Part shown: positions 11,633 through 36,301 of the stretch, piece by piece
How the letters are laid out: each line of letters starts with the position of its first letter
Numbering within the stretch: position 1 is the stretch's first letter
NCBI GenBank assembly: GCA_015711825.1
Contig: JACVJD010000021.1
Coordinates: 1 to 38,861 of the forward strand
From: Candidatus Solincola daggyaiensis
Lineage (GTDB): Bacteria > Actinomycetota > Geothermincolia > Geothermincolales > RBG-13-55-18
Length of the DNA: 38,861 bases
Reading direction: 5' to 3'
The notes under the pieces: generated by a model
What the model was told of the DNA's origin: nothing
The model's input: only the letters and a program-made list of their open reading frames with translations
Databases searched by the model: none
Position numbers and translations under genes: made by a program

Positions 11633-12268
11633 CTATTTCCCCGCGACTTCTTTGATGATACGCGCTGCGGCAAGCTCCGCCAGCACCGAGAGGTCCTCGG
11701 TGGGCAGGTATCCCGGCGCAGAGGCGTCGAACAGCACCCTGGCCGAGGCGGGGAATTCCTCGTCGCGCTCGTTGAAGATGACCAACAGGGGCAGGCGCGG
11801 CAACACACGCCATACCGCCGCCACGTCTCCGGGAAGATCCGCGATGCGCGCGTGGCGCTCCACCCAGCGGCGCAGATGATCGAGGCGCCCTTCCAGGGCG
11901 CGGGAGAGGGGCATCTCGACATCGGCGCGGAAAGCGGGCTCGTGGTATCGGGCGCCCGGAAGATCCCGGTACGCCACCCATCGCCCTTCCACCTCTCCGC
12001 CGTCGGCGGTCACCAGGTAGTGGAGGACGATCAGGGTCTCCTCGGGGCTTGCGGATTCGCCCTCCGCGCGGCACACCTCTCCTCCCGGATAGGAAACGGT
12101 GAGCGCCTCTTCCAGGAACGGGACCATGAAGCGCCTTTCCGTATAGGAATATTCCACGCCGGCGCGGGAGGCCATCCACGAAGGGTCCTTGGCCGCCAGC
12201 TCGCCCACGGCCTTCTCCCGCGCTTCGCGGTATTGGTCCTTAGCCTCCTCCGCTTCGCCGTCTTTCAT
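11633..12268 (-). CDS. DUF3786 domain protein
   Basis: 211 aa. The pattern fits DUF3786: IVLHYLVTADG, GRWVAYRDLPGARYHEPAF, a central GDVAAVWRVLPRLPLLVIF, then ERDEEFPASARVLFDASAP and LPTEDLSVLAELAA near the end. DUF3786 is found mostly in anaerobes and often near corrinoid or acetyl-CoA metabolism genes; its biochemical role is not established. I use the ATG at 12266-12268, which has GGGAGGA upstream, over an earlier in-frame ATG. It appears monocistronic. Confidence 0.85.
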   Translation of the reverse strand: MKDGEAEEAKDQYREAREKAVGELAAKDPSWMASRAGVEYSYTERRFMVPFLEEALTVSYPGGEVCRAEGESASPEETLIVLHYLVTADGGEVEGRWVAYRDLPGARYHEPAFRADVEMPLSRALEGRLDHLRRWVERHARIADLPGDVAAVWRVLPRLPLLVIFNERDEEFPASARVLFDASAPGYLPTEDLSVLAELAAARIIKEVAGK

Positions 12269-12307
12269 CTTTCTCTTCCTCCCGTTTCTCATCCCCCCGA
12301 CTCGGAA

Positions 12308-12529: not shown

Positions 12530-13276
12530 TTACCTTATCCCCCATGCCTTGTGGGCCTGGGGCATCACCCTCACCGCCGCGAAGAAGGGGGCCGCCGCCA
12601 GCATGAGATCCCAGGCATGACGCGGCTTCAGGCCCGCGCCCACGTCACGCCAGGCCGGCTGCAGCACCAGGGTTAGATCCGCGGCTTCCCCTCCCAGCCG
12701 GCGGCACAGGCGGGAAATCTCCTCCGGCATGGTGGTATCGTCCACCACCATCTTCAGGAACAGCTCCTTCGCGCGCGCCGCCCGGAGAAAGAGAAGGTGT
12801 TCGTCGCCGTGGTCAACGCCCCCGGAAAAGGAAGGCAGCTTTATATCCATGGCGATGAAGTCCAGCCAGGGAAGCAGCTTTTCCACCGCCCCGTAAAGGG
12901 TGCCGTTGGTCTCGAGGTATACCGGCATGCCCCGCTCCCTCAGCAAGGGGAGCAGCGCGGAGAGCGCCTCCGCCTGCAACAGGGGCTCGCCGCCCGTTAA
13001 GCTCACCGAGTGCATCTCCGCCTTCCAGAGCGTGACTGCGACCTCGGCCAGCTCCGACGCCCGCACCGGGTTTTCTATTCCCGGCCGTTCCCCTTCCCAA
13101 TCCGAGACCCATGCCGTTCCCGTGCGCTCCCTGGCCTGGGGGGTATCGCAATACGAGCATGCGAGGTTGCACCCCGAGAGCCTGATGAACAGCTGGGGGA
13201 CGCCGCAATACGCTCCCTCTCCCTGGAAGGAGGGGAAAAGCTCGTGAACGTAAAGCAGGGAGTCGTCGTCTTTCAT
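12530..13276 (-). CDS. queE: 7-carboxy-7-deazaguanine synthase (radical SAM)
   Basis: QueE converts 6-carboxytetrahydropterin to 7-carboxy-7-deazaguanine on the path to preQ0 and queuosine. The 248-aa protein has the FPSFQGEG substrate motif, the radical SAM cluster C36-NLA-C40-SY-C43 (CX3CX2C), SLTGGEPLLQ (SAM binding) and YLETNGT. Length is typical. It is the last gene of the que operon, 53 nt after the DUF366 gene. The ribosome site is weak. Confidence 0.95.
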   Translation of the reverse strand: MKDDDSLLYVHELFPSFQGEGAYCGVPQLFIRLSGCNLACSYCDTPQARERTGTAWVSDWEGERPGIENPVRASELAEVAVTLWKAEMHSVSLTGGEPLLQAEALSALLPLLRERGMPVYLETNGTLYGAVEKLLPWLDFIAMDIKLPSFSGGVDHGDEHLLFLRAARAKELFLKMVVDDTTMPEEISRLCRRLGGEAADLTLVLQPAWRDVGAGLKPRHAWDLMLAAAPFFAAVRVMPQAHKAWGIR

Positions 13277-13329: not shown

Positions 13330-13917
13330 TCAGCTCACGCCCCTCACCTTGCAGCGGGCCTGCTCCATGCCCTTCATCTCGTTGATGAAATCCTGCAGCA
13401 CCTTAAGGATGAAGTCGTCCACCGGGATCTCGAGGTCGTCCAGGCCCAAGGTGGGCACGGGGGTGTTCTCGCTGGAGATGTTGACCCCCAAGTGGATGAG
13501 GGCGGACACCGGGCTCACCGTGGCCACCGATACCGTCAGCTTGCGGTTCTCCTCCTCGCCCTCCTCCGCCTCCACCTCGATAAAGAGGTCGTCTCCCCTG
13601 CGGGTTATGAACAGCTCCGGCTTCAACTCCTCTATGACGTCCTTGACCACGCAGAGAAAGAGCCTTTGCAAGGCCACGGCGCGTTCCAGGTCGCATCCGA
13701 AGAGCTCCACGATGAAGTGGGCCATCTCCTCGCTCCTGATCTCGGCGCGGTTCTTGCGGTCCTCGGCATCCACCAGGCTCTCCACCCCCACCTGGCAGGG
13801 ACCCCGAAATGCGAGGATGGAATCGCCCTGCACGTCATGCACGGTATAGGAATACAGGGAGCGGAGCTGAGAGCCGTCGTAGGTTATCCTCTTGCCCTTG
13901 ATATACTTGCCTTTCAT
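13330..13917 (-). CDS. DUF366 family protein within que operon
   Basis: 195 aa, opening with KGKRITYDGSQLRSLYSY and containing a QGDSILAFRGPCQV segment, which fits the small DUF366 family of archaea and anaerobic bacteria. The function is not established as far as I know. It sits between queC and queE on the same strand with short gaps, so it is co-transcribed with the 7-deazaguanine pathway. ATG 13915-13917 (GTG one codon earlier possible) follows GGAGGGGAGGGG. A role in making, salvaging or using preQ0 or its precursors is inference from position. Confidence 0.82.
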   Translation of the reverse strand: MKGKYIKGKRITYDGSQLRSLYSYTVHDVQGDSILAFRGPCQVGVESLVDAEDRKNRAEIRSEEMAHFIVELFGCDLERAVALQRLFLCVVKDVIEELKPELFITRRGDDLFIEVEAEEGEEENRKLTVSVATVSPVSALIHLGVNISSENTPVPTLGLDDLEIPVDDFILKVLQDFINEMKGMEQARCKVRGVS

Positions 13918-13956
13918 CACCCCTCCCCTCCGCTCTCAACCGACCCCGGAACGACT

Positions 13957-14649
13957 TCACGCCTCCACGAAAAGGTTCTTCAGGCGCCCCATAACCCCCA
14001 GCCGCACCGCCGCCCTGCGCAGGCGCGCGCAGGACTCGCAACGGCCGCACATCGAATCCTCTCCATTATAGCACGACCAGATAAGGCGAAAGTCCAGCTC
14101 ACGCGCGATGGCCTCGCGCAATATATCCATTTTATCCCATTCAATCGTGAAGCTGCGCAATCTTACCCTTCCCATGGTCGAATACCCCAGGGCGCGGTTG
14201 GTCTCGCGCAGAAAGGCGTTGGAGTTGTCCGGGAAGGCGGCGGCCTCCTCCGCGTTCATCCCCATCACCACCCATGGCGCGCCCAGGGACTCCGCCACGC
14301 AGGCCCCCATGGCCGCCAGCAACCCGTTGCGGTTGGGGACCCACACCGCGCGCGCCCGCTCCCGCGACGCATGGGGATCGTCGAGCTCGCAGGGGCCCAC
14401 CTCGGGCGGTCCCTCGCCCTGTGTAGTGAGGGCATCCGAGGAAAGCTCTCCCAGCCACCTCGCCCCGAGGACCAGGTGCCTCACGCCATGGGCGGCGCAA
14501 ATACTCGCGGCCCTTTCCGACTCGCGGGCCGCCGCTCGCTGCCCGTAGTCCACGGTCACCGCCGCCTCCACCCCGCCCTTATCCAGGGCCATGAGAAAAT
14601 TCACCGCGGAATCCAGGCCGCCCGAGAGCATGACCACGTTCTTTCCCAT
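13957..14649 (-). CDS. queC: 7-cyano-7-deazaguanine synthase
   Basis: QueC converts 7-carboxy-7-deazaguanine to preQ0 with ATP and ammonia. The 230-aa protein has the PP-loop SGGLDSA (residues 9-15), VTVDYGQRAA, VPNRNG, GMNAEEAAAFPDN and a C-terminal zinc site, SCYNG followed by CGRCESCARLRRA. The ATG (14647-14649) overlaps the queD stop as ATGA. The frame is open upstream across queD, but that part is antisense-like shadow and is rejected. Confidence 0.95.
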   Translation of the reverse strand: MGKNVVMLSGGLDSAVNFLMALDKGGVEAAVTVDYGQRAAARESERAASICAAHGVRHLVLGARWLGELSSDALTTQGEGPPEVGPCELDDPHASRERARAVWVPNRNGLLAAMGACVAESLGAPWVVMGMNAEEAAAFPDNSNAFLRETNRALGYSTMGRVRLRSFTIEWDKMDILREAIARELDFRLIWSCYNGEDSMCGRCESCARLRRAAVRLGVMGRLKNLFVEA

Positions 14650-15026
14650 CAACCCTCCCGGTAGACCACCTCGGTGTCCGGCGACTCGCTCACGCTCACC
14701 CAGGCCAGCCTGGCTCCCGGCGTCGACAAGCGCAGTTTTTCCTCCAGGGCCAGGTAAACGTGACGGGCTATGTTCTCCGAGGTGGGAGAGGCCCGACGGA
14801 AGGGCTCGATCTCGTTCAGACAGGAATGGTCGAAGGGCGCTACGACCTCGGCCAGCAAAGCCTTGAGGTCGTGAAAGTCCATGACCATCTCCGAGGGGCC
14901 CAGGGAGCTTCCCGAGACCGCCGCTCTCACCCTCCAGGTGTGCCCGTGCATGCGCGCGCACTTACCCTGGTATGCGCGCAGGTAATGCGCGGCGTGAAAA
15001 CTTACGGCGGCGCATATCTCGTACAT
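14649..15026 (-). CDS. queD: 6-carboxy-5,6,7,8-tetrahydropterin synthase
   Basis: QueD makes 6-carboxytetrahydropterin from dihydroneopterin triphosphate. The 125-aa protein has the PTPS zinc triad: H14 in SFHAAHYL and H27/H29 in ARMHGHTW, with the catalytic Cys-23 just before. A PTSENIARHV segment supplies a conserved Glu. Length is normal. There is no Shine-Dalgarno; an extended -10 sits so that the transcript would begin at the A of the ATG. Confidence 0.95.
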   Translation of the reverse strand: MYEICAAVSFHAAHYLRAYQGKCARMHGHTWRVRAAVSGSSLGPSEMVMDFHDLKALLAEVVAPFDHSCLNEIEPFRRASPTSENIARHVYLALEEKLRLSTPGARLAWVSVSESPDTEVVYREG

Positions 15027-15084: not shown

Positions 15085-16077
15085 TCAACGCAGCATCTCC
15101 ACGAAGCTCTCCAGCCTCACGCGGGCACGTGCGTCCAAATCGGTTTCGCGGTCGAGCTCCAAGGTCAGGATGGGGACGTCAAGGCTGCGACGCAGGATGA
15201 TGTCCTCGATCTGCCGGAAGCAGAAGCTTTGCACGTAATGGATGATCCCGGCCAGCTTCCTTCTCTCGATCTCCCTGCCGATATCCTCCAGCCGGTAGAA
15301 AATGGAATAGGGATAGCTGTACAAGCGGTATTTCTCCACCAGGTCACGCGTCTGGAAGGGCAGGCTGAACTGGCGCTGCGTCTCGTTGAAGACCACACGC
15401 GCCCCCAGGCCCTCCAGGTAGTCATAGAGCGCGGGCGCCATGGGAGGCACCCCCACGTAACCCAACCTCACCATCTCCCCCGCCTTCGCGAACCCGTCGC
15501 CTGCGCGCTTTTCCGCAGCCGCCATGAAGGTCTCCAGCTTTTGCCCGAAGGCGTCTGGATCCCCCTCCATATCGCTGCAGCTCACCAGGAAGAGGTGGTT
15601 CTCAAACCCCGTTACCAAACCCTCCCTCCAGGTCAGCTCGTCCACGCGGTGGGCCTTGGCGCGCACGCCGTCCAGCCGCAGGGTCGCCTCCTCCACCGCT
15701 TTTTCCTCCGCCCCCAGGCGGCGCATGAAGACCTCCACCTGCAGACGCAAGAGGTCGTAATCTCTCTCGTACGGATAAGCGAAGGGTATGACCTCGACCC
15801 CCTCCGACTGCAGGGTCTCCATAAGGCCGTGGGTGTTGGAACAATCGCCCTGGGTGACCGCCACCACGGCATCCAGGTCTCCCATCTCCTCCACCACCCC
15901 ATAGATACCCTTTATCCAGGCGCAGAAGGAGCGCGGGAAGCCCGCCTCCTCCGCTCTCTCCATAAGCTCACGGTAGCGGGGATGGGAAACGAAGACGTTG
16001 TTGAGGTCCACCGGGACGTGCCCGGCGGCGTAGATGACCTCTATGGGCACCGTGGTGGTGATGCCTATCTTTCCCAT
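15085..16077 (-). CDS. 2-hydroxyacyl-CoA dehydratase subunit (HgdB/BcrB-like), stand-alone
   Basis: 330 aa. The opening GITTTVPIEVIYAAGHVPVDLNN is the hallmark of the HgdB/FldB/BcrB family. Conserved cysteines that would bind a [4Fe-4S] cluster are at C52 (SFCAW), C79 (GDCSNTH) and in the C-terminal VQSFCFRQIED. True dehydratases need a second subunit and an ATP-dependent activator; neither is here, so it may be a divergent stand-alone member acting in reductive or sulfur chemistry. There is no Shine-Dalgarno; its ATG sits 6 nt after an extended -10. The gene lies between the que operon and acyl-CoA dehydrogenase. Confidence 0.82.
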   Translation of the reverse strand: MGKIGITTTVPIEVIYAAGHVPVDLNNVFVSHPRYRELMERAEEAGFPRSFCAWIKGIYGVVEEMGDLDAVVAVTQGDCSNTHGLMETLQSEGVEVIPFAYPYERDYDLLRLQVEVFMRRLGAEEKAVEEATLRLDGVRAKAHRVDELTWREGLVTGFENHLFLVSCSDMEGDPDAFGQKLETFMAAAEKRAGDGFAKAGEMVRLGYVGVPPMAPALYDYLEGLGARVVFNETQRQFSLPFQTRDLVEKYRLYSYPYSIFYRLEDIGREIERRKLAGIIHYVQSFCFRQIEDIILRRSLDVPILTLELDRETDLDARARVRLESFVEMLR

Positions 16078-28748: not shown

Positions 28749-29770
28749 TAGGCATCCACCACCTGATTGAGTATATCCAGGATGTCTATATTCACCGGAC
28801 AGAGGTTGATGCAGCGGCCGCAGCCCACGCAGGCGATGACCTCGAAGCGGTTGGGGTAGTAGGAGTACTTGTGGTTGACGCGGTTGCGCGTGCGCTCCTT
28901 GCGCGTGGGACGGGGGTTGTGCCCCGAGGCGTGCAGGGTGTACTCCCTGAACATGCAGGAGTCCCACATGCGGCAGCGCCGTCCCTCGCCCGTCTCCTCG
29001 GTCTCGTCCTGGATGTCGAAGCAGTGGCAGGTGGGGCAGAGGAAGGTGCAGATGCCGCATCCCAGGCAGGCCGCCGACACCTTTTTCCACAGCTCGCTGT
29101 CCCACAGGGTGGGGAGCTTCTCCGGGATGCCCTCGGTGTTGATGGAGCGGCGGATCTTGCCCTCGGCCTCCTTGGCCATGCCCTCGGCCTTCTTCTCGTC
29201 GTCGGCGGGGGCCTCCCCGAGCTGCGACGAGAGGGTCTCCTCCAGCTTCTTGCCCTTGTCGGTCAGGGCCTGCACCAGGTAATAGTCGCCCATGTCGGTG
29301 AGGAGCACGTCCAGGCCCTCGCTCCCGAAGGGGCTTCCCCCAAGCGAGGTGCAGAAGCAGTTCACCGAGGGGGGCTCGACGCAAGCCATCCCCACCAGGG
29401 TGGTGAGCTCGCGGCGCTTGAGGTAATAGGGGTCCTCGTAGTCCCAGGCGAAGAGCTTGTCCACGATGGCCATGGCCCGCGCGTCGCAGGGGCGCAGGCC
29501 GAAGATGACCGTGGTCCCCTCCTCCTCCACGTTCTTCTCGGTGAGCTCGGAGCTGCCCCTCATGAAGCGGAAGAGGGTCTCCGTCTGCGGGAAGGCGAAT
29601 TTCTTGGGGGGCACGGTGGAGTTGCCGTAATCCAGGAAGGCCTCCGCGGGATCGGAGATCTGCTTGAAGACCACCACCTCGTCCGACTTGGCGGGCGCGA
29701 TGAGGCGGAACTTGGAGAGCTCGCTAAGAGCGTCCCCGACCTTTTCCTTGCTGAGTTTTTTCACTGCCAT
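28748..29770 (-). CDS. 4Fe-4S dicluster subunit (FlxB / sulfhydrogenase beta-like)
   Basis: 340 aa. Residues 1-200 resemble the sulfhydrogenase beta/AsrA N-terminal domain, with a FGLRPCDARAMAIVDKLF segment. Two ferredoxin clusters follow: C235-LG-C238-GI-C241-TFL-C245 and C314-VG-C317-GR-C320-INL-C324, plus extra cysteines (PTCHCFD, RRCRMWDSC). It should carry electrons between the FAD subunit and the rest of the complex. I use the ATG at 29768-29770, which has GAGGTG upstream; a GTG three codons earlier overlaps that site. Its partner upstream is a related protein, so one of these is FlxB and the other FlxC. Confidence 0.85.
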   Translation of the reverse strand: MAVKKLSKEKVGDALSELSKFRLIAPAKSDEVVVFKQISDPAEAFLDYGNSTVPPKKFAFPQTETLFRFMRGSSELTEKNVEEEGTTVIFGLRPCDARAMAIVDKLFAWDYEDPYYLKRRELTTLVGMACVEPPSVNCFCTSLGGSPFGSEGLDVLLTDMGDYYLVQALTDKGKKLEETLSSQLGEAPADDEKKAEGMAKEAEGKIRRSINTEGIPEKLPTLWDSELWKKVSAACLGCGICTFLCPTCHCFDIQDETEETGEGRRCRMWDSCMFREYTLHASGHNPRPTRKERTRNRVNHKYSYYPNRFEVIACVGCGRCINLCPVNIDILDILNQVVDA

Positions 29771-29782
29771 GGCACCCACCTC

Positions 29783-30766
29783 TTAGAGTATGAAGTCTTC
29801 CCGGTCATCCACCTTGAAGGTGGAGAGCAGCGGCGGATTCTCTGCGTTGGTGCCCGGCTCGTAGTCGTAGAGCTCCTCCACGTCCTTGTAGAACTTGCGG
29901 TTGAGCTCCATGAGCGGTATGTCCACCGGGCAGACGCGCTGGCATTCTCCGCACTGGATGCATCGCCCCGCGAGGTGATAGGCGCGGGAGATGTGGTAGG
30001 CGGTGTTCTCGCTCACGTCCACGCTGCGTCTCATCCACTGGGGGTTAAGCCGCTCCAGCACGCAGTCCTCGCAGTAGCACATGGGGCAGACGTTGCGGCA
30101 GGAATAGCAGCGGATGCAGCGGGAGAACTTCTCCTCCCAGTACGCCCACTTCTCCGCCCCGGCGCGCTTCTCCAGCTCGACGATGTCGGAGTAGTCGTCG
30201 TCGGCGAAGCGCGCCACCTCCGCGTCCAGCAGCTCGTCATAGACCAGGGGGGTGGGGTAGCGGCAGCGCAGGCACTTGTCCGCCAACAGCTCCTCCTTGG
30301 CCACCTCCTCTTTCCCGCCTCCCGTGGAGAGCACGAACTTGTCTCCCTCCAGGGCGATCTCCCCCCGCTCCAAAACGTTGGGGAACCTGGCCTCGACCTT
30401 GGCCATGTCCACCACCCCGGTGCAAGGTATGCCCAGCACCAGGATGCGCTCGCGGTCGTATGCCTTCTCCTCCATCTGCTGCACCAGGGCGCGGGAGTCG
30501 CAGCCCTTGACCATCACCGCCACCTTACGCAGATCGGGCTCCTCGCCCCGGGGCACCGGCAGCTTCTCCTCCAGCACGATGTAGGAGGCGAGGTTGTTCA
30601 CGCAGGCGGGCGTGAAGATGAGCTCGTCCACCTCGTCCGGGCCCTGGACGAAGGCGGGACGCGCCCGGAAGCCGTAGGTCCCGGGGCGGTACCCGATGAG
30701 CATCCTCACGTCGTCCCTGGAGACAACCTCCTTGGCTTTCTCTCTGAGTTTGTTAACATCTACCAA
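29783..30766 (-). CDS. 4Fe-4S / F420-dehydrogenase-beta-like subunit (FlxC-like)
   Basis: 327 aa. The N-terminal half has the FrhB/FdhB-like pattern VMVKGCDSRALVQQMEEK and ILVLGIPCTGVVDMAK. Later come CLRCRYPTP, a dense cluster CIRCYSCRNVCPMCYCEDC and a C-terminal ferredoxin CIQCGECQRVCPVDIP. No F420 dependence can be shown. The start is TTG at 30764-30766, with GGAGG 8 nt upstream; it overlaps the end of the MvhD gene by 7 nt, so translation is coupled. A much longer in-frame reading upstream is antisense-like shadow over mvhD and hdrA and is rejected. Confidence 0.85.
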   Translation of the reverse strand: MVDVNKLREKAKEVVSRDDVRMLIGYRPGTYGFRARPAFVQGPDEVDELIFTPACVNNLASYIVLEEKLPVPRGEEPDLRKVAVMVKGCDSRALVQQMEEKAYDRERILVLGIPCTGVVDMAKVEARFPNVLERGEIALEGDKFVLSTGGGKEEVAKEELLADKCLRCRYPTPLVYDELLDAEVARFADDDYSDIVELEKRAGAEKWAYWEEKFSRCIRCYSCRNVCPMCYCEDCVLERLNPQWMRRSVDVSENTAYHISRAYHLAGRCIQCGECQRVCPVDIPLMELNRKFYKDVEELYDYEPGTNAENPPLLSTFKVDDREDFIL

Positions 30767-31197
30767 TTTAACTGCCTCCGTTTGAACTGGTCCATGGGCC
30801 CGACTTCCTTCACGCCGTTCACGACCTCCTCGATGACCTCTTTCCACTTGGCGCCCTCGGAGGCCGACACCCAGCTCATGCGCACCCTCTGGGGCTCCAC
30901 TCCCAGGTACTCCAGAAAGTTGCGCATGAGGTTGAAGCGGCGCCGCGCATAATAGTTGCCATGCATGTAATGGCAGTCGCCGGGGTGACAACCGGAGATA
31001 AGCACCCCGTCGGCTCCCTCCTGCAGGGCGTTCATCACGAAGAGGGGATTGACCCTGCCCGAACACATGACCCTGATCACCCGCACGTTGGACGGGTACT
31101 GGATACGCGAGGTGCCGGCCAGGTCGGCCCCGGCATAAGAGCACCAGTTGCACAGGAAAGCCACGATGTTGGGCTCGAAATCGCTGTTTTCCGCCAT
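30760..31197 (-). CDS. MvhD/FlxD iron-sulfur protein
   Basis: 145 aa. The MvhD family signature is present: FLCNWCSYAGADLAG (residues about 15-29), RVMCSGRVNP and ISGCHPGDCHYMHGN, giving a [2Fe-2S] site. MvhD links hydrogenase or Flx subunits to HdrA. Here it sits directly between hdrA and the Flx-like subunits, the expected place. The gene starts 3 nt after the hdrA stop with only a weak ribosome site, suggesting coupled translation. Confidence 0.93.
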   Translation of the reverse strand: MAENSDFEPNIVAFLCNWCSYAGADLAGTSRIQYPSNVRVIRVMCSGRVNPLFVMNALQEGADGVLISGCHPGDCHYMHGNYYARRRFNLMRNFLEYLGVEPQRVRMSWVSASEGAKWKEVIEEVVNGVKEVGPMDQFKRRQLNW

Positions 31198-31200
31198 GTT

Positions 31201-33237
31201 CTACTTCACCCCCAGGGCCTTGATCTGAGGCATCAACTGCAGGTCCTTGAAGGAGCGCTGCTGGATGGAGCCGGAGAGGCAGGCCGCCGCGCAGGCGCCG
31301 CAGCCCTTGCACAGGGCCTCGTTGACCCGCGCCACCTTTACCGGCCAGCCCATACGGTTTATCTCCACCAGCTCGATGGCCGAGAAGGGGCAGAGCTCCA
31401 CGCAGAAACCGCATCCGCGGCAGGTGTCCTCGTTGACCACCGAGGTCTGGGCCTCCACCTTTACCTTGCCCGAGGCCATGGGGATCATGGCCGCCGAGGC
31501 CGCTCCCTTGGCCTGGGCCACGGCGTCGGGGATGTCCTTGGGCCCCTGGCACACGCCGGCGAGGTAGATGCCGTCGGAGGCGGTGTCCACCGGGCGCAGC
31601 TTGGGGTGGGCCTCCAGGTAGAAGAGGTCGGAGGACTGCGAGAGCTTGAGCAGATCGATGATCTCGCGGTTGTCGGAGCGCGGGCATAGCCCCACCGACA
31701 GGACCACCATGTCCGTCTCGTGCTCCAGGGGGGTCGCGGTGAGGGTATCCTCGGCCCGCACGATGAGCTTGTCGCCCTTCTTGTAGATCTCCGAGGGATT
31801 GCCGCGGATGTACTTCACGCCCTCGCGGCGCACGCGGTCGTAGAACTCCTCGAAGCCCTTGCCGAAGGCACGCACGTCCATGTAGAAGATGGTCACCTCG
31901 CAGTCGTGGCCGACCTTGTCTTTGACCAGGTGGGCCAGCTTGGCGGTGTACATACAGCACACGCGGGAGCAGTACTCGTTGCCCACGCTTTTATCGCGGG
32001 AGCCCACGCACTGGATGAAGGTGACGCTCCGGGGCATCCTGGGGGCCTCCGCCTCCTCGCCTTCCTTCTTCTTCTTTTTCTTCCCCCGCTCCAGCATGAC
32101 CACCTTGCCGCCGGTGGGTCCGGAGGCGTTGACCATGCGCTCGAACTCCAGGGCGGTGAGCACGTTGTCGTACACCCCGTAGCCGTACTCCGGCTTAAGC
32201 CTGGCGTCGAAGATGTCGAAGCCGGTGGCCACGATGATCGTGCCCACCTTGAACTCGACGACCTCGTCCTGGAGGTCGAAGTTGATGGCCCCCGCCTGGC
32301 AGGCCTCCTTGCACTTGGGCGACTCGCCGCACTTCCCCTTGGAGAGGAAGAGGCAGTTCTCCTTGTCGATGGTGTACTTGGCGGGAACCGCCTGCGGGAA
32401 GGGTAGGTAGATGGCCCCCCGCATGCCTATCCCCTCGTCGAACTCGTTGGGGATACGCCCCGCCATGCGGCACTCCTCCGCGCAGGCCCCGCACCCCGTG
32501 CACTTGTCCATGTCCACGAAGCGGCTTTTCTTGCGCACCTTGATGTCGAAGTTCCCGATGTAGCCGCCGATCTCCTCCACCTGGGAGTAGGTCATGAGCT
32601 CGATGTTGGGGTGGTTGGCCACGTCCACCATCTTGGGGGTGAGGATGCAGGCGGAGCAGTCCAGGGTGGGGAAGGTCTTGTCCAGTTGGGCCATGTGCCC
32701 GCCCACGGTGGGGCTCTTCTCCACCAGATAGACCTTGAAGCCCGCGTCGGCGATGTCCAGGGCGGCCTGGATGCCGGCGATGCCCGCCCCGATGATCAGG
32801 CAGGAGGGCTCCACTTCCACTTCCTTCACGTCCAGGGCCTCCAGCCTGCGCGCCTTGACCACCGCCGCCTCCACCACCCTCTTGGCCTTTTCGGTGGCGG
32901 CGATGGGGTCGTCGTGCACCCAGGAGCACTGCTCGCGGATGTTGGCCATCTCCAGGAAATAGGGGTTGAGGCCGCCGGAGAGAAGCGTCTTACGGAAGGT
33001 GGGCTCGTGCATGCGCGGCGAGCATGAGGCCACCACCACGCGGTTCAGGCCCATGTTCGCGATGTCGTCGGTGATCAGCGCCTGCCCGGGGTCGGAGCAC
33101 ATGTAGGAGTAGTTGCGCGCCACCACCACGTCGGGCAGGGTCTGCGCGAACTGCACCACCTCTTCCACGTTCACCGTGCCCGCGATGTTGGTGCCGCAGT
33201 GGCAGACGTAGACCCCGATCTTCGGTTTACCGTTCAT
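31201..33237 (-). CDS. hdrA: HdrA-type flavin electron-bifurcating subunit
   Basis: 678 aa. HdrA holds the bifurcating FAD and several iron-sulfur clusters. An N-terminal Cys domain (VCHCGTNIAG, MCSDPGQ, ASCSPRMHE) is followed by the FAD-binding GAGIAG (150-155) and VGGHMAQLD. Ferredoxin clusters are at C246-C256 and again at the C-terminus, C606-C616 and C643-C653. A Cys-rich block QCVGSRD to YCSRVCCMYTAKLA (409-434) is the HdrA-specific cluster. A run of Lys (386-391) with Glu-rich flank between residues 384 and 400 is an insertion in a surface loop. The ATG follows GGAGG at 12 nt. It follows etfA by about 90 nt. Confidence 0.96.
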   Translation of the reverse strand: MNGKPKIGVYVCHCGTNIAGTVNVEEVVQFAQTLPDVVVARNYSYMCSDPGQALITDDIANMGLNRVVVASCSPRMHEPTFRKTLLSGGLNPYFLEMANIREQCSWVHDDPIAATEKAKRVVEAAVVKARRLEALDVKEVEVEPSCLIIGAGIAGIQAALDIADAGFKVYLVEKSPTVGGHMAQLDKTFPTLDCSACILTPKMVDVANHPNIELMTYSQVEEIGGYIGNFDIKVRKKSRFVDMDKCTGCGACAEECRMAGRIPNEFDEGIGMRGAIYLPFPQAVPAKYTIDKENCLFLSKGKCGESPKCKEACQAGAINFDLQDEVVEFKVGTIIVATGFDIFDARLKPEYGYGVYDNVLTALEFERMVNASGPTGGKVVMLERGKKKKKKEGEEAEAPRMPRSVTFIQCVGSRDKSVGNEYCSRVCCMYTAKLAHLVKDKVGHDCEVTIFYMDVRAFGKGFEEFYDRVRREGVKYIRGNPSEIYKKGDKLIVRAEDTLTATPLEHETDMVVLSVGLCPRSDNREIIDLLKLSQSSDLFYLEAHPKLRPVDTASDGIYLAGVCQGPKDIPDAVAQAKGAASAAMIPMASGKVKVEAQTSVVNEDTCRGCGFCVELCPFSAIELVEINRMGWPVKVARVNEALCKGCGACAAACLSGSIQQRSFKDLQLMPQIKALGVK

Positions 33238-33329
33238 ATGTCTCTTTTCCTCCTCGTGCCTTGGGAAAAGCTCTGATATCCTGCGATTTCATTATGGGCA
33301 CCGGAGGAGTCCGGGCTCAATGACAACCA

Positions 33330-34295
33330 TTAAGCGCCCTTCAACTCCTTGATCTTCTCCGTAAGCTTGGGGACCACCTTGAAGAGGTCGTCCACGATGC
33401 CGTAGTCCGCGATGCCGAAGATGGGCGCGTCGGGGTCCTTATTGATGGCCACGATGACCTCCGACCCCTTCATGCCGGTGACGTGCTGGAAGGCTCCGGA
33501 GATGCCCACCGCGAGGTAGAGCTTGGGCTTCACCGTCTTGCCGGAGATTCCCACCTGGCGGTCGGACGGCAGCCAGCCCGCGTCCACCACCGCGCGCGAG
33601 GCGGCGAGGTCGGCGCCCAGCGCCTGGGCCAGCTCCTCCACCACCGGCATGTTCTTGTCCTCGCGGATGCCGCGGCCCACGCCCACCAGCAGCGTGGACT
33701 GGGTGATGTCCACCTCGCCCACCTCGGGCTCAACGTACTCCACGAACTTGCGATAGGAGAGGTCCTCGGTCACCGGGTTGTCCACCTTGACGATCTCGCC
33801 CGTCTTGGAGGGGTCCTCGGCGGTGAAGGTGGCCTCGCGCACGGTGAGGATGTAGAGGTCGGCATCCTTCATGGTGAAGTGCGCGTCCAGCTTGCCGCCG
33901 TAGAAGGTACGCGTCGGCTTGGGCTTGTCGCCGTCCATCTCCAGGGCGGTGATGTCGGTTAGAAGTGAGGCGCCCAGCTCCACTGCCAGCGCGGGGGCGA
34001 GGTCCACGCCCTGGGCGGTGTTGCCGATGAGCACCAGGCCCGGGCCGTGCTCCTTGATGAGGGCGGAGAGGGCCTTCTGGTAGGCCTCGGAGTTGTAGTT
34101 CTCGAACAGGGGGTCGTTGACATAGAGGACCTTGTCGGCGTAGCCCGCCGCCTTCTCCGCGAAGGCGTCCACGTCCTTGCCCAACAGGACGGCGACCACC
34201 GTCCCGCCCAGCTTGGCGGCGCCGCAGAGCATCTCCACCGAGACGTCCCGCATCTCGCCGCGACGGTGCTCGATGAGAACGAAGATGTCTTTCAT
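33330..34295 (-). CDS. etfA: Electron transfer flavoprotein alpha subunit
   Basis: 321 aa. The C-terminal FAD domain is clear: [34 protein letters not shown] and [18 protein letters not shown]. EtfA pairs with EtfB to accept electrons from acyl-CoA dehydrogenases. Its ATG adjoins the etfB stop (TAA-ATG). Whether the pair is of the bifurcating or the simple type cannot be read safely by eye. Its place between an HdrD-like protein and HdrA suggests delivery to, or from, Hdr. Confidence 0.95.
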
Positions 34296-35093
34296 TTACA
34301 CCAGCCCCTTCTCCTTCAGGATGGCGGCCAGTTTCGCCGCCGTCTCCTCCGGCTCGCCCTCCAGGATCTCGGCCATCTCGCCCACCACCGGCGGCGTGAA
34401 CTTCTCCAGCACCGCCCAGGAGCCCGCCTCTCCCACCTCGGAGGCGTTCAACCCCAGGTCGGCGGCGGACTTGACGGCGATCTCCTTCTTGGCCGCCTGC
34501 TTGATGCCCTTGAAGGAGGCGTAGCGCGGCTCGTTTATGCCGGTCTGAATACCCAGCACGCAGGGAAGGTCGATCTCCAGGAACTCCATGAGGCCGCCCT
34601 CGAGCTCGCGCCCCACCTTGGCGCGCTTACCGGGCTCCAGTATCTCCACCTTCTTCACGTAGGTGGCATGGGGCACTCCCAGCAGCTCGCCCAGGGCCGC
34701 CGGCACCACCGCATAGCCGTCATCGTCGGCCAGGGCGCCGGTGAAGACGATGTCGTACTCCAGGCCCTTGATGGCGGCGGCCAGTGCCTTGGCGGTGGCC
34801 AGCCCGTCCCCGCCCTTGAAGGCGTCATCCTCGAGGCGCATGGCCTCGTCGCCCCCTTTGGCCAGGGCCATGCGGATGACCTCGTCGGAATCCTTGTCTC
34901 CCAGGCTGACAACCGTCACCGTGCCCTCGCCCAGGCGCTCCTTGATCTGGATGGCCTCCTCCACGGCGTAGTTGTCGCACTCGTTGATTCCGAAGGATAG
35001 TCTGCTCTTGTCGATATCCTTTCCGGAGGCGTCGATGTGGACCTCGGACTCCGCGGTGTCCGGGACCCTCTTCACGCATACCACCATGTTCAT
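34296..35093 (-). CDS. etfB: Electron transfer flavoprotein beta subunit
   Basis: 265 aa with the EtfB pattern: VVCVKRVPDT at the start, GINECDNYAVEEA, TVVSLGDKDSDEVIRMALAKGGDEA, YDIVFTGALADDDGYAVVPA, and LPCVLGIQTGINEPRYASFKGIKQA. It binds a nucleotide or second flavin and docks the dehydrogenase. The ATG at 35091-35093 has GAGGTG with 8-nt spacing; an upstream in-frame start is rejected. It is 71 nt after the HdrD-like gene. Confidence 0.95.
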   Translation of the reverse strand: MNMVVCVKRVPDTAESEVHIDASGKDIDKSRLSFGINECDNYAVEEAIQIKERLGEGTVTVVSLGDKDSDEVIRMALAKGGDEAMRLEDDAFKGGDGLATAKALAAAIKGLEYDIVFTGALADDDGYAVVPAALGELLGVPHATYVKKVEILEPGKRAKVGRELEGGLMEFLEIDLPCVLGIQTGINEPRYASFKGIKQAAKKEIAVKSAADLGLNASEVGEAGSWAVLEKFTPPVVGEMAEILEGEPEETAAKLAAILKEKGLV

Positions 35094-35164
35094 ACCCGTT
35101 TCACCTCTTCCCTTTTCGATCATCCCGATACGCTTACCGATGTCGCGCGCAAACGCCCGTATAT

Positions 35165-36301
35165 CTACAGAGCCTCGGCCAGAAGCTCGAGGATATCCGC
35201 CACGCGCATCTCCTCCTCAACGCCTTTGACCTTGGTGGCGTCCTCCAGGGTGAGCAGGCAGAAGGGGCAGGCGACGGCGATGATCTCCGCGCCCAGCTCC
35301 TTGGCGTCCTCCACCCTGATCTCCGCCAGGCGCTCGGCCTTGGACTCGCTCTCAACCCACATCTTTCCTCCCCCGCCCTCGCAGCAGAGGCTGCGCTCGC
35401 GGCAGCGGTCGAACTCCCTGAACTCCACCCCGGGGATGCGGGTGATGATGTAGCGCGGCTCATCGTAGATGTCGTTCTGCTTGCCCAGGAAGCAGGGGTC
35501 GTGGTAGGTGATCACCTTGGCCATCTCCTTGCTGAGCTGGAGTTTGCCCTCCTCGAGGAGCTCGGCCACCAGCTCGGTGTAGTGGAGCACCGGGTGCTTG
35601 AGGCCGTGGTACTCTTTCTTGAGGGTGTTGTAACAGTGGGGGCTCACGGTGACGATGCGATTGACGTTGAAGGAGTTGAGCAGCTCCACGTTCTCCTCGT
35701 CACACATCTCGAAGAGGCCCTCCTCCCCGAGGCGGCGCACCTCGCTGCCGCAGCAGCTCTCCTCTTCGCCGATGATGCCGAAATCCACCCCCGCGGCGTT
35801 CAGCACCTTTACCAGGGCCTGGGCCACCTTCATCACCCGGGGATCATAGGCGTCGGTGCAGCAGACGAAGAGCAGCACGTCGGTGGCTTCCTCCGCCTCC
35901 GGCTCCAGCGCCTCCACCTCCAGGCCGGCGGTCCAGTCCAGGCGTTTGGCCCGCGGTGAGCCCCAGGGGTTTCCGTCCTTGAAGATGGATTCCAGGGCGT
36001 CGCGCACCGTGGGCTGCACCCTCCCCTCCTCGATCTGCAGGCTGCGCAGGCCGATGAGCACCTCGAGGGGCTCCAGGCCCTTGGGGCAGCGCGCGGCGCA
36101 GGTATAGCAGGTGGTGCAATCCCAGATCTCTGGCCTCTCGGAAAGTTCCTCCAGGCGCTCCTCGTTCTGGGTGTCGTACATGAAGCACCTGACCCTCAGG
36201 TCGGTCCTCAGCGCGACGGGGCAACCACCCGTACACCTCCCGCACTGGATGCATCCGAGGAGGTCATACTTCTCGACGAAACCGATTTCTTCAGCGCACA
36301 T
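35165..36301 (-). CDS. HdrD-like protein (HdrC-HdrB fusion), soluble
   Basis: 378 aa. The N-terminal HdrC part has two ferredoxin clusters, CIQCGRCTGGCPV (residues about 17-29) and CTTCYTCAARCPKG (about 62-75). The C-terminal HdrB part has two CCG motifs, SCCGSEVRRLGEE and LCCEGGGGKMW, each preceded by its Cys lead-in (VCCTDAYDP, HDPCFLGK). No transmembrane segment is present, unlike membrane FeS ETF-oxidoreductases. In the Hdr family this active site handles disulfides or, as likely here, exchanges electrons with ETF. It is the first gene of the eight-gene operon. Confidence 0.93.
   Translation of the reverse strand: MCAEEIGFVEKYDLLGCIQCGRCTGGCPVALRTDLRVRCFMYDTQNEERLEELSERPEIWDCTTCYTCAARCPKGLEPLEVLIGLRSLQIEEGRVQPTVRDALESIFKDGNPWGSPRAKRLDWTAGLEVEALEPEAEEATDVLLFVCCTDAYDPRVMKVAQALVKVLNAAGVDFGIIGEEESCCGSEVRRLGEEGLFEMCDEENVELLNSFNVNRIVTVSPHCYNTLKKEYHGLKHPVLHYTELVAELLEEGKLQLSKEMAKVITYHDPCFLGKQNDIYDEPRYIITRIPGVEFREFDRCRERSLCCEGGGGKMWVESESKAERLAEIRVEDAKELGAEIIAVACPFCLLTLEDATKVKGVEEEMRVADILELLAEAL

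Follow-up and report, generated by a model that had tools for sequence, protein, structure and literature searches.

What does a DUF366 protein do inside an operon for queuosine precursors, and how does a bacterium that carries such an operon reduce 7-cyano-7-deazaguanine (preQ0) to preQ1? Both questions are raised by a contig of Candidatus Solincola daggyaiensis (JACVJD010000021.1, assembly GCA_015711825.1), of which the whole stretch analysed, 38,861 nt long, is referred to below as the window. The explanation that we favour, at a probability of about two in three, is a de novo preQ0/preQ1 operon for queuosine synthesis without QueF, where a protein of the HGD-D family is the predicted ATP-driven preQ0 reductase and DUF366 is a separate accessory at the preQ0 node.

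Operon layout and the missing pathway step

The que genes of the window lie on the minus strand. QueD, a 6-carboxytetrahydropterin synthase (14649..15026; PF01242 E 1e-36, TIGR03367 above cut-off), has its CxxxHGH motif intact in the translation, and its stop codon overlaps the ATG of queC as TGATG. QueC, the preQ0 synthase (13957..14649; PF06508 E 9e-44), scores 147 bits for TIGR00364 against a cut-off of 150.3, and its SGGLDS loop and CGRCESC motif are likewise intact in the translation. The DUF366 gene follows (13330..13917; PF04017 E 5.8e-59; biotin-protein-ligase/LplA fold), its open reading frame extending over 13330-13920 since a GTG at 13920 immediately precedes the ATG at 13917, upstream of which lies a GGAGG-like site. 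Last comes QueE, the 7-carboxy-7-deazaguanine synthase (12530..13276), a radical SAM protein with an intact C-x3-C-x2-C motif that matches the Radical_SAM Pfam and QueE NCBIfam models with scores under the equivalog cut-offs. The order queD-queC-DUF366-queE with short gaps, as given in an earlier note on this DNA, is thus confirmed by the open reading frames and the Pfam and NCBIfam matches, and, in agreement with the same note, neither QueF nor Tgt is among the annotated genes of the window. Absent from that note is the HGD-D family protein (HgdB/BcrC/DCCP-like; 15085..16077, minus strand; PF06050 E 2e-35), whose gene lies directly upstream of queD and is a conserved member of the que cluster.

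A DUF3786 protein is encoded just 3′ of queE (11633-12292, minus strand) and its place next to the que cluster is conserved in many relatives from the phylum, among them G099 (locus L200), a genome without detected DUF366. Further away in the window (28751-36301, minus strand) there is a cluster of HdrA-like, FlpD/MvhD, EtfA, EtfB and CCG-domain iron-sulfur proteins, possibly an electron-bifurcating or low-potential electron supply. A search for preQ1 riboswitches in the window region and 22 related loci found none. A phage or plasmid origin was rejected, as there was no IMG/VR relative and no plasmid match; the sole phage match, Microcystis phage MaAM05 (L220, MW495066.1), carries SecDF, GlyS, FliM, OmpA and acyl-CoA dehydrogenase, and its record looks like a bacterial contig.

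On contig C31 of the same genome, adjacent genes encode Tgt, QueA and a QueH-like protein, the last assigned from motifs read in the translation. QueF is the NADPH-dependent reductase that converts preQ0 to preQ1, and the source genome gave no match to it (PF14489, T-fold reductase). As QueD, QueE, QueC, Tgt, QueA and the putative QueH are all encoded, the only known enzyme missing among these steps is the one from preQ0 to preQ1.

HGD-D as a candidate preQ0 reductase

The HGD-D protein has 330 amino acids and belongs to the 2-hydroxyacyl-CoA dehydratase/benzoyl-CoA reductase family (PF06050). Its AlphaFold2 model (pLDDT 90) matches, over its entire length and with Z 30-33, DCCP (7yzm, Z 33.1 with 318 residues aligned), BzdNO (8s02, Z 33.0) and 2-hydroxyisocaproyl-CoA dehydratase (3o3n, Z 31.7), the aligned stretches being of 313-318 residues. 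An alignment of 33 sequences, including one fragment, shows Cys52, Cys79 and Cys286 conserved; the six cysteines and [8Fe-9S] cluster of DCCP proper are not found, with three conserved cysteines and a total of four in the window protein.

To compare its occurrence with that of QueF, a profile of que-type HGD-D (A3, 17 sequences) was searched in the same 69 genomes in which we had found DUF366, taking 380 bits or more as a strong match. Strong HGD-D was found in 46 genomes and QueF in 14, with both in none and neither in 9 (Fisher p 5e-9, too optimistic because the genomes are taken as independent). The 46 include cases in which the HGD-D gene is not part of the que cluster, and many of the genomes in the HGD-D and QueF counts are incomplete metagenome assemblies. 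By a hand tally of the 55 genomes having QueA together with a true QueC, 41 have HGD-D only, 13 have QueF only and one (G231) has neither, so that exactly one of the two is present in 54 of 55. An even sample of the source phylum gave a similar picture: among 107 genomes with strong QueA, HGD-D occurs in 21 and QueF in 34, never together (p 1e-4, again too optimistic for the same reason), and the remaining 52 have neither protein. The best DUF366 tree implies a minimum of 10 changes between the HGD-D and QueF states, on branches of which few are well supported, and a tree-aware pair test of the two proteins had too few supported pairs for significance. Two HGD-D genomes, G099 and G003, have no detected DUF366. 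HGD-D is a far better candidate than DUF366 for the step that QueF would otherwise catalyse.

Two que clusters with HGD-D and without detected DUF366 were located (L200:7643-10118 and L201:3-3048), the second also having the activator ATPase. Where HGD-D of Firmicutes lies outside the que cluster (L202, L203, L204, L205, L207, L208, L209 and L214), it is found in a recurring set with MurI-like, metallo-beta-lactamase-fold, RNase PH-like and RdgB-like genes, with the activator ATPase sometimes present and sometimes absent.

The relatives of HGD-D, namely dehydratases, benzoyl-CoA reductases and DCCP, work with an ATP-hydrolysing activator. In Desulforamulus putei, as at other loci, the gene next to HGD-D encodes a BcrAD/BadFG ATPase (E 1e-24 to 1e-37), and in the wider group to which the window belongs a homologue lies between HGD-D and queD in ten loci (L022, L024, L027, L031, L033, L043, L045, L049, L050 and L051). 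A tblastn search confined to the window found no activator ATPase, and the que operons of the nearest relatives (G174, G185, G120 and G195) have no activator gene either. The sister genome G174 has a distant activator homologue, and a shared activator encoded elsewhere possibly serves HGD-D of the window type.

In the pathway that we propose, QueD, QueE and QueC, as assigned by family, would make preQ0, and HGD-D would reduce its nitrile to the aminomethyl group of preQ1 by means of a [4Fe-4S] cluster, predicted to be held by three cysteines and to obtain low-potential electrons from a BcrAD/BadFG-type ATPase. The product would then be used by Tgt, QueA and QueH, the genes for which are present together elsewhere in the genome.

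Two other explanations have to be weighed here. HGD-D is a low-potential redox protein encoded beside a radical SAM enzyme, in a pathway that has another reductive step, and instead of reducing preQ0 it might replace epoxyqueuosine reductase (QueG/QueH) or donate electrons to QueE. We consider this very improbable, because neither role accounts for the strict exclusion between HGD-D and QueF, and because a QueH-like protein is present in the source genome and a scan of 9 HGD-D genomes found QueH in 8, which makes a replacement of epoxyqueuosine reductase unlikely. The exclusion itself could reflect lineage history, with anaerobes having HGD-D and others QueF, rather than a shared function; many HGD-D genomes do belong to anaerobes, and the supported independent pairs are few. 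Yet HGD-D and activator genes lie inside the que operon, the exclusion is seen within the Firmicutes, the Chloroflexi and the source phylum, and history would also have to explain why nearly all genomes with QueA and QueC, as tallied above, have exactly one of the two proteins. We therefore regard lineage history as improbable and retain preQ0 reduction as the role of HGD-D.

Distribution, fold and candidate roles of DUF366

With one genome scanned per species, 80 named DUF366 loci were obtained, which come from Actinomycetota, Firmicutes, Chloroflexi, Armatimonadota, Planctomycetota, Bdellovibrio-like bacteria, Brevinematales and other groups, and 79 of these were evaluated for neighbours. 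In 66 of the 79, queC, queD or queE lies on the same strand within 3 kb; the outcome that the earlier note had named as speaking against its proposal, DUF366 being mostly away from que genes, is thus not what is seen. A que, HGD-D or VUT gene lies on the same strand within 300 bp at 71 of the 79 loci, and therefore the arrangement is not due to chance. Within this distance and on this strand we found queE at 51 loci, queC at 44 and a VUT transporter at 5, the commonest order being queC-DUF366-queE; in Desulforamulus putei DSM 12395, for example, a folE-like gene comes after queD-queC-DUF366-queE. In the source phylum DUF366 is sparse, being found in 19 of the 198 genomes sampled, and it lies in the same cluster in all 19; one group of families has no QueC in this cluster. 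Among 14 control genomes it is present only in two archaea, Methanocaldococcus jannaschii and Methanosarcina acetivorans. Archaea make archaeosine instead of queuosine, and DUF366 is carried by archaea without detectable QueF or QueA.

The 69 DUF366 genomes have a true QueC in about 60 cases, QueA in 62 and QueF in 14. DUF366 as a replacement of QueC was rejected on this count, the true QueC being sometimes on another contig when it is missing from the cluster. In six genomes DUF366 is kept without QueC or a convincing QueE; of these, G217, G220, G243 and G244 encode both Tgt and QueA, and in G226 and G230 Tgt-like genes are found and DUF366 is immediately preceded by a VUT (COG1738) gene. A member of COG1738, YhhQ, is a preQ0 transporter in E. 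coli (PMC5372724). The order queC-VUT-DUF366 is found in G235. With its clustering with queC, queD and queE across phyla and its position next to a COG1738/VUT-type transporter in Chloroflexales, the role in 7-deazaguanine metabolism that the earlier note had suggested for DUF366 is upheld.

The VUT/COG1738-type genes directly upstream of DUF366 in Chloroflexales are at L089:7147-7968, L094:7413-7946 and positions 45620-46162 of contig 129 of G235 (about L100:7448-7990), and two of these genomes lack QueC, QueA, QueF and HGD-D. At L078:9701-10438, L089:11135-11953, L094:9803-11048 and L100:10430-11879, a few kb from DUF366, there are genes for DUF6884 proteins, joined at L094 and L100 by one like nucleoside 2-deoxyribosyltransferase; these neighbours are a possible further link to 7-deazaguanine use.

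The window protein matches PF04017 at 199 bits (cut-off 29.9) over profile positions 6-184 of 184. Its AlphaFold2 model (pLDDT 95, pTM 0.91) has 2ddz as the closest structure (Z 29.0; phmmer E 8e-32), and the next matches are biotin protein ligases and lipoyl transferases with Z 12-14, among them PhBPL/2ejg (Z 14.0, rmsd 2.8, 157 aligned) and 1w66 (Z 13.6). No biotin protein ligase or LplA Pfam model matched DUF366 above threshold. A weak profile alignment with the Aquifex biotin ligase 2eay (E 0.089) sets R107..D111..K127..N147 of DUF366 against the ligase motif KWPND..K..GIGIN, so that K127 is paired with the lysine of the ligase and N147 with the asparagine of GIGIN; both residues are invariant across 64 DUF366 sequences. 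In the region of the GRGR-type adenylate loop, which lies outside the profile alignment and was read by eye, the DUF366 consensus has no conserved arginines, and an acidic VDxxD stretch (D51 and D54 conserved) near the ligase loop position, also read by eye, serves as a lead only. The consensus has no conserved redox cysteines. The modelled fold and the conservation suggest that DUF366 is an enzyme, and its membership in the 7-deazaguanine pathway together with a biotin-ligase/LplA fold is well supported.

The earlier note had offered reduction as one possible step for DUF366, and here the results go against it. That DUF366 itself substitutes for QueF, or is an obligate subunit of the replacement reductase, could be argued from the 55 of 69 DUF366 genomes that lack QueF and from the source phylum, where DUF366 is found in 19 of the 21 HGD-D genomes and never without HGD-D. 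But its fold is that of a ligase and lacks conserved redox cysteines, it is present in archaea that have no detectable QueF or QueA, and as a QueF replacement it was rejected since 14 of its genomes also have QueF and two HGD-D genomes do without detected DUF366; we hold this role to be highly improbable. Help at the step from QueE to QueC, with DUF366 binding 7-carboxy-7-deazaguanine (CDG) and handing it over or activating it for amidation, deserves more thought, as the commonest gene order places DUF366 between queC and queE and as the CDG carboxylate resembles the substrates of biotin and lipoate ligases, whose fold family handles carboxylates. Against it, QueC, QueD and QueE of the window have their usual catalytic motifs, E. 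coli makes preQ0 with FolE, QueD, QueE and QueC (PMC5372724), DUF366 persists in the six genomes without QueC or a convincing QueE, and the GRGR-type ligase loop is not seen in its consensus. On balance we find this assistance rather doubtful.

DUF366 is probably an accessory enzyme of the preQ0 node and not the preQ0 reductase, because its genomes include some with QueF, some without it and some that lack QueC and apparently rely on salvage. What these genomes have in common is a 7-deazaguanine base, whether synthesised or taken up, rather than a particular step further down the pathway. We infer, as we do for preQ0 reduction by HGD-D, that DUF366 would most likely bind and process a 7-deazaguanine at the preQ0 node, either preQ0 itself or a closely related base, irrespective of whether it comes from QueC or from import and of which reductase acts next.

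Significance and relation to known systems

In many bacteria expected to make queuosine, QueF is apparently missing, and they may be taken for salvagers or for organisms with an incomplete pathway. If our reading is true, a second and unrelated preQ0 reductase closes this gap and corrects pathway predictions for anaerobes, a biological reduction of nitrile to amine joins the repertoire of ATP-activated [4Fe-4S] enzymes, and DUF366, which has no function in the literature searched, gains a defined pathway for testing. The literature search found no paper tying DUF366, COG2029 or PF04017 to queuosine and none tying QueF to the dehydratase/benzoyl-CoA reductase family, and neither preQ0 reduction by HGD-D nor a 7-deazaguanine role of DUF366 is proposed there. 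We put at even odds the broader claim that the operon holds two unrecognised parts of queuosine metabolism, namely an iron-sulfur nitrile reductase of the benzoyl-CoA reductase/2-hydroxyacyl-CoA dehydratase family, activated by ATP and taking the place of QueF in many anaerobic phyla, and in DUF366 a biotin-ligase-fold enzyme common to bacteria and archaea with a new 7-deazaguanine activity.

Compared with known systems, DUF366 of the window is of the same family as 2ddz of Pyrococcus horikoshii, an archaeal protein without assigned function; a structure of the family has been available since 2007. It resembles the catalytic domain of biotin protein ligase, LplA and LipB in fold (Z 13-14) and in having equivalent Asp, Lys and Asn residues, and it differs from them in that no conserved GRGR-type loop is seen, an acidic VDxxD stretch being found instead. 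HGD-D shares with DCCP, 2-hydroxyisocaproyl-CoA dehydratase and class I benzoyl-CoA reductase the fold, the cluster cysteines and, in many genomes, a BcrAD/BadFG-type activator, but it is shorter, has one three-cysteine site and lies in que operons; also, its predicted substrate is a nitrile nucleobase and not a CoA ester. Its three invariant cysteines match the aqua-[4Fe-4S] site of BzdO, formed by Cys95, Cys128 and Cys380, and relatives of DCCP are able to reduce acetylene, hydrazine and azide (PMC11971306). With QueF, which is of an unrelated family (PF14489), HGD-D shares only the predicted reaction from preQ0 to preQ1, for which it would depend on an iron-sulfur cluster and an ATP-driven activator.
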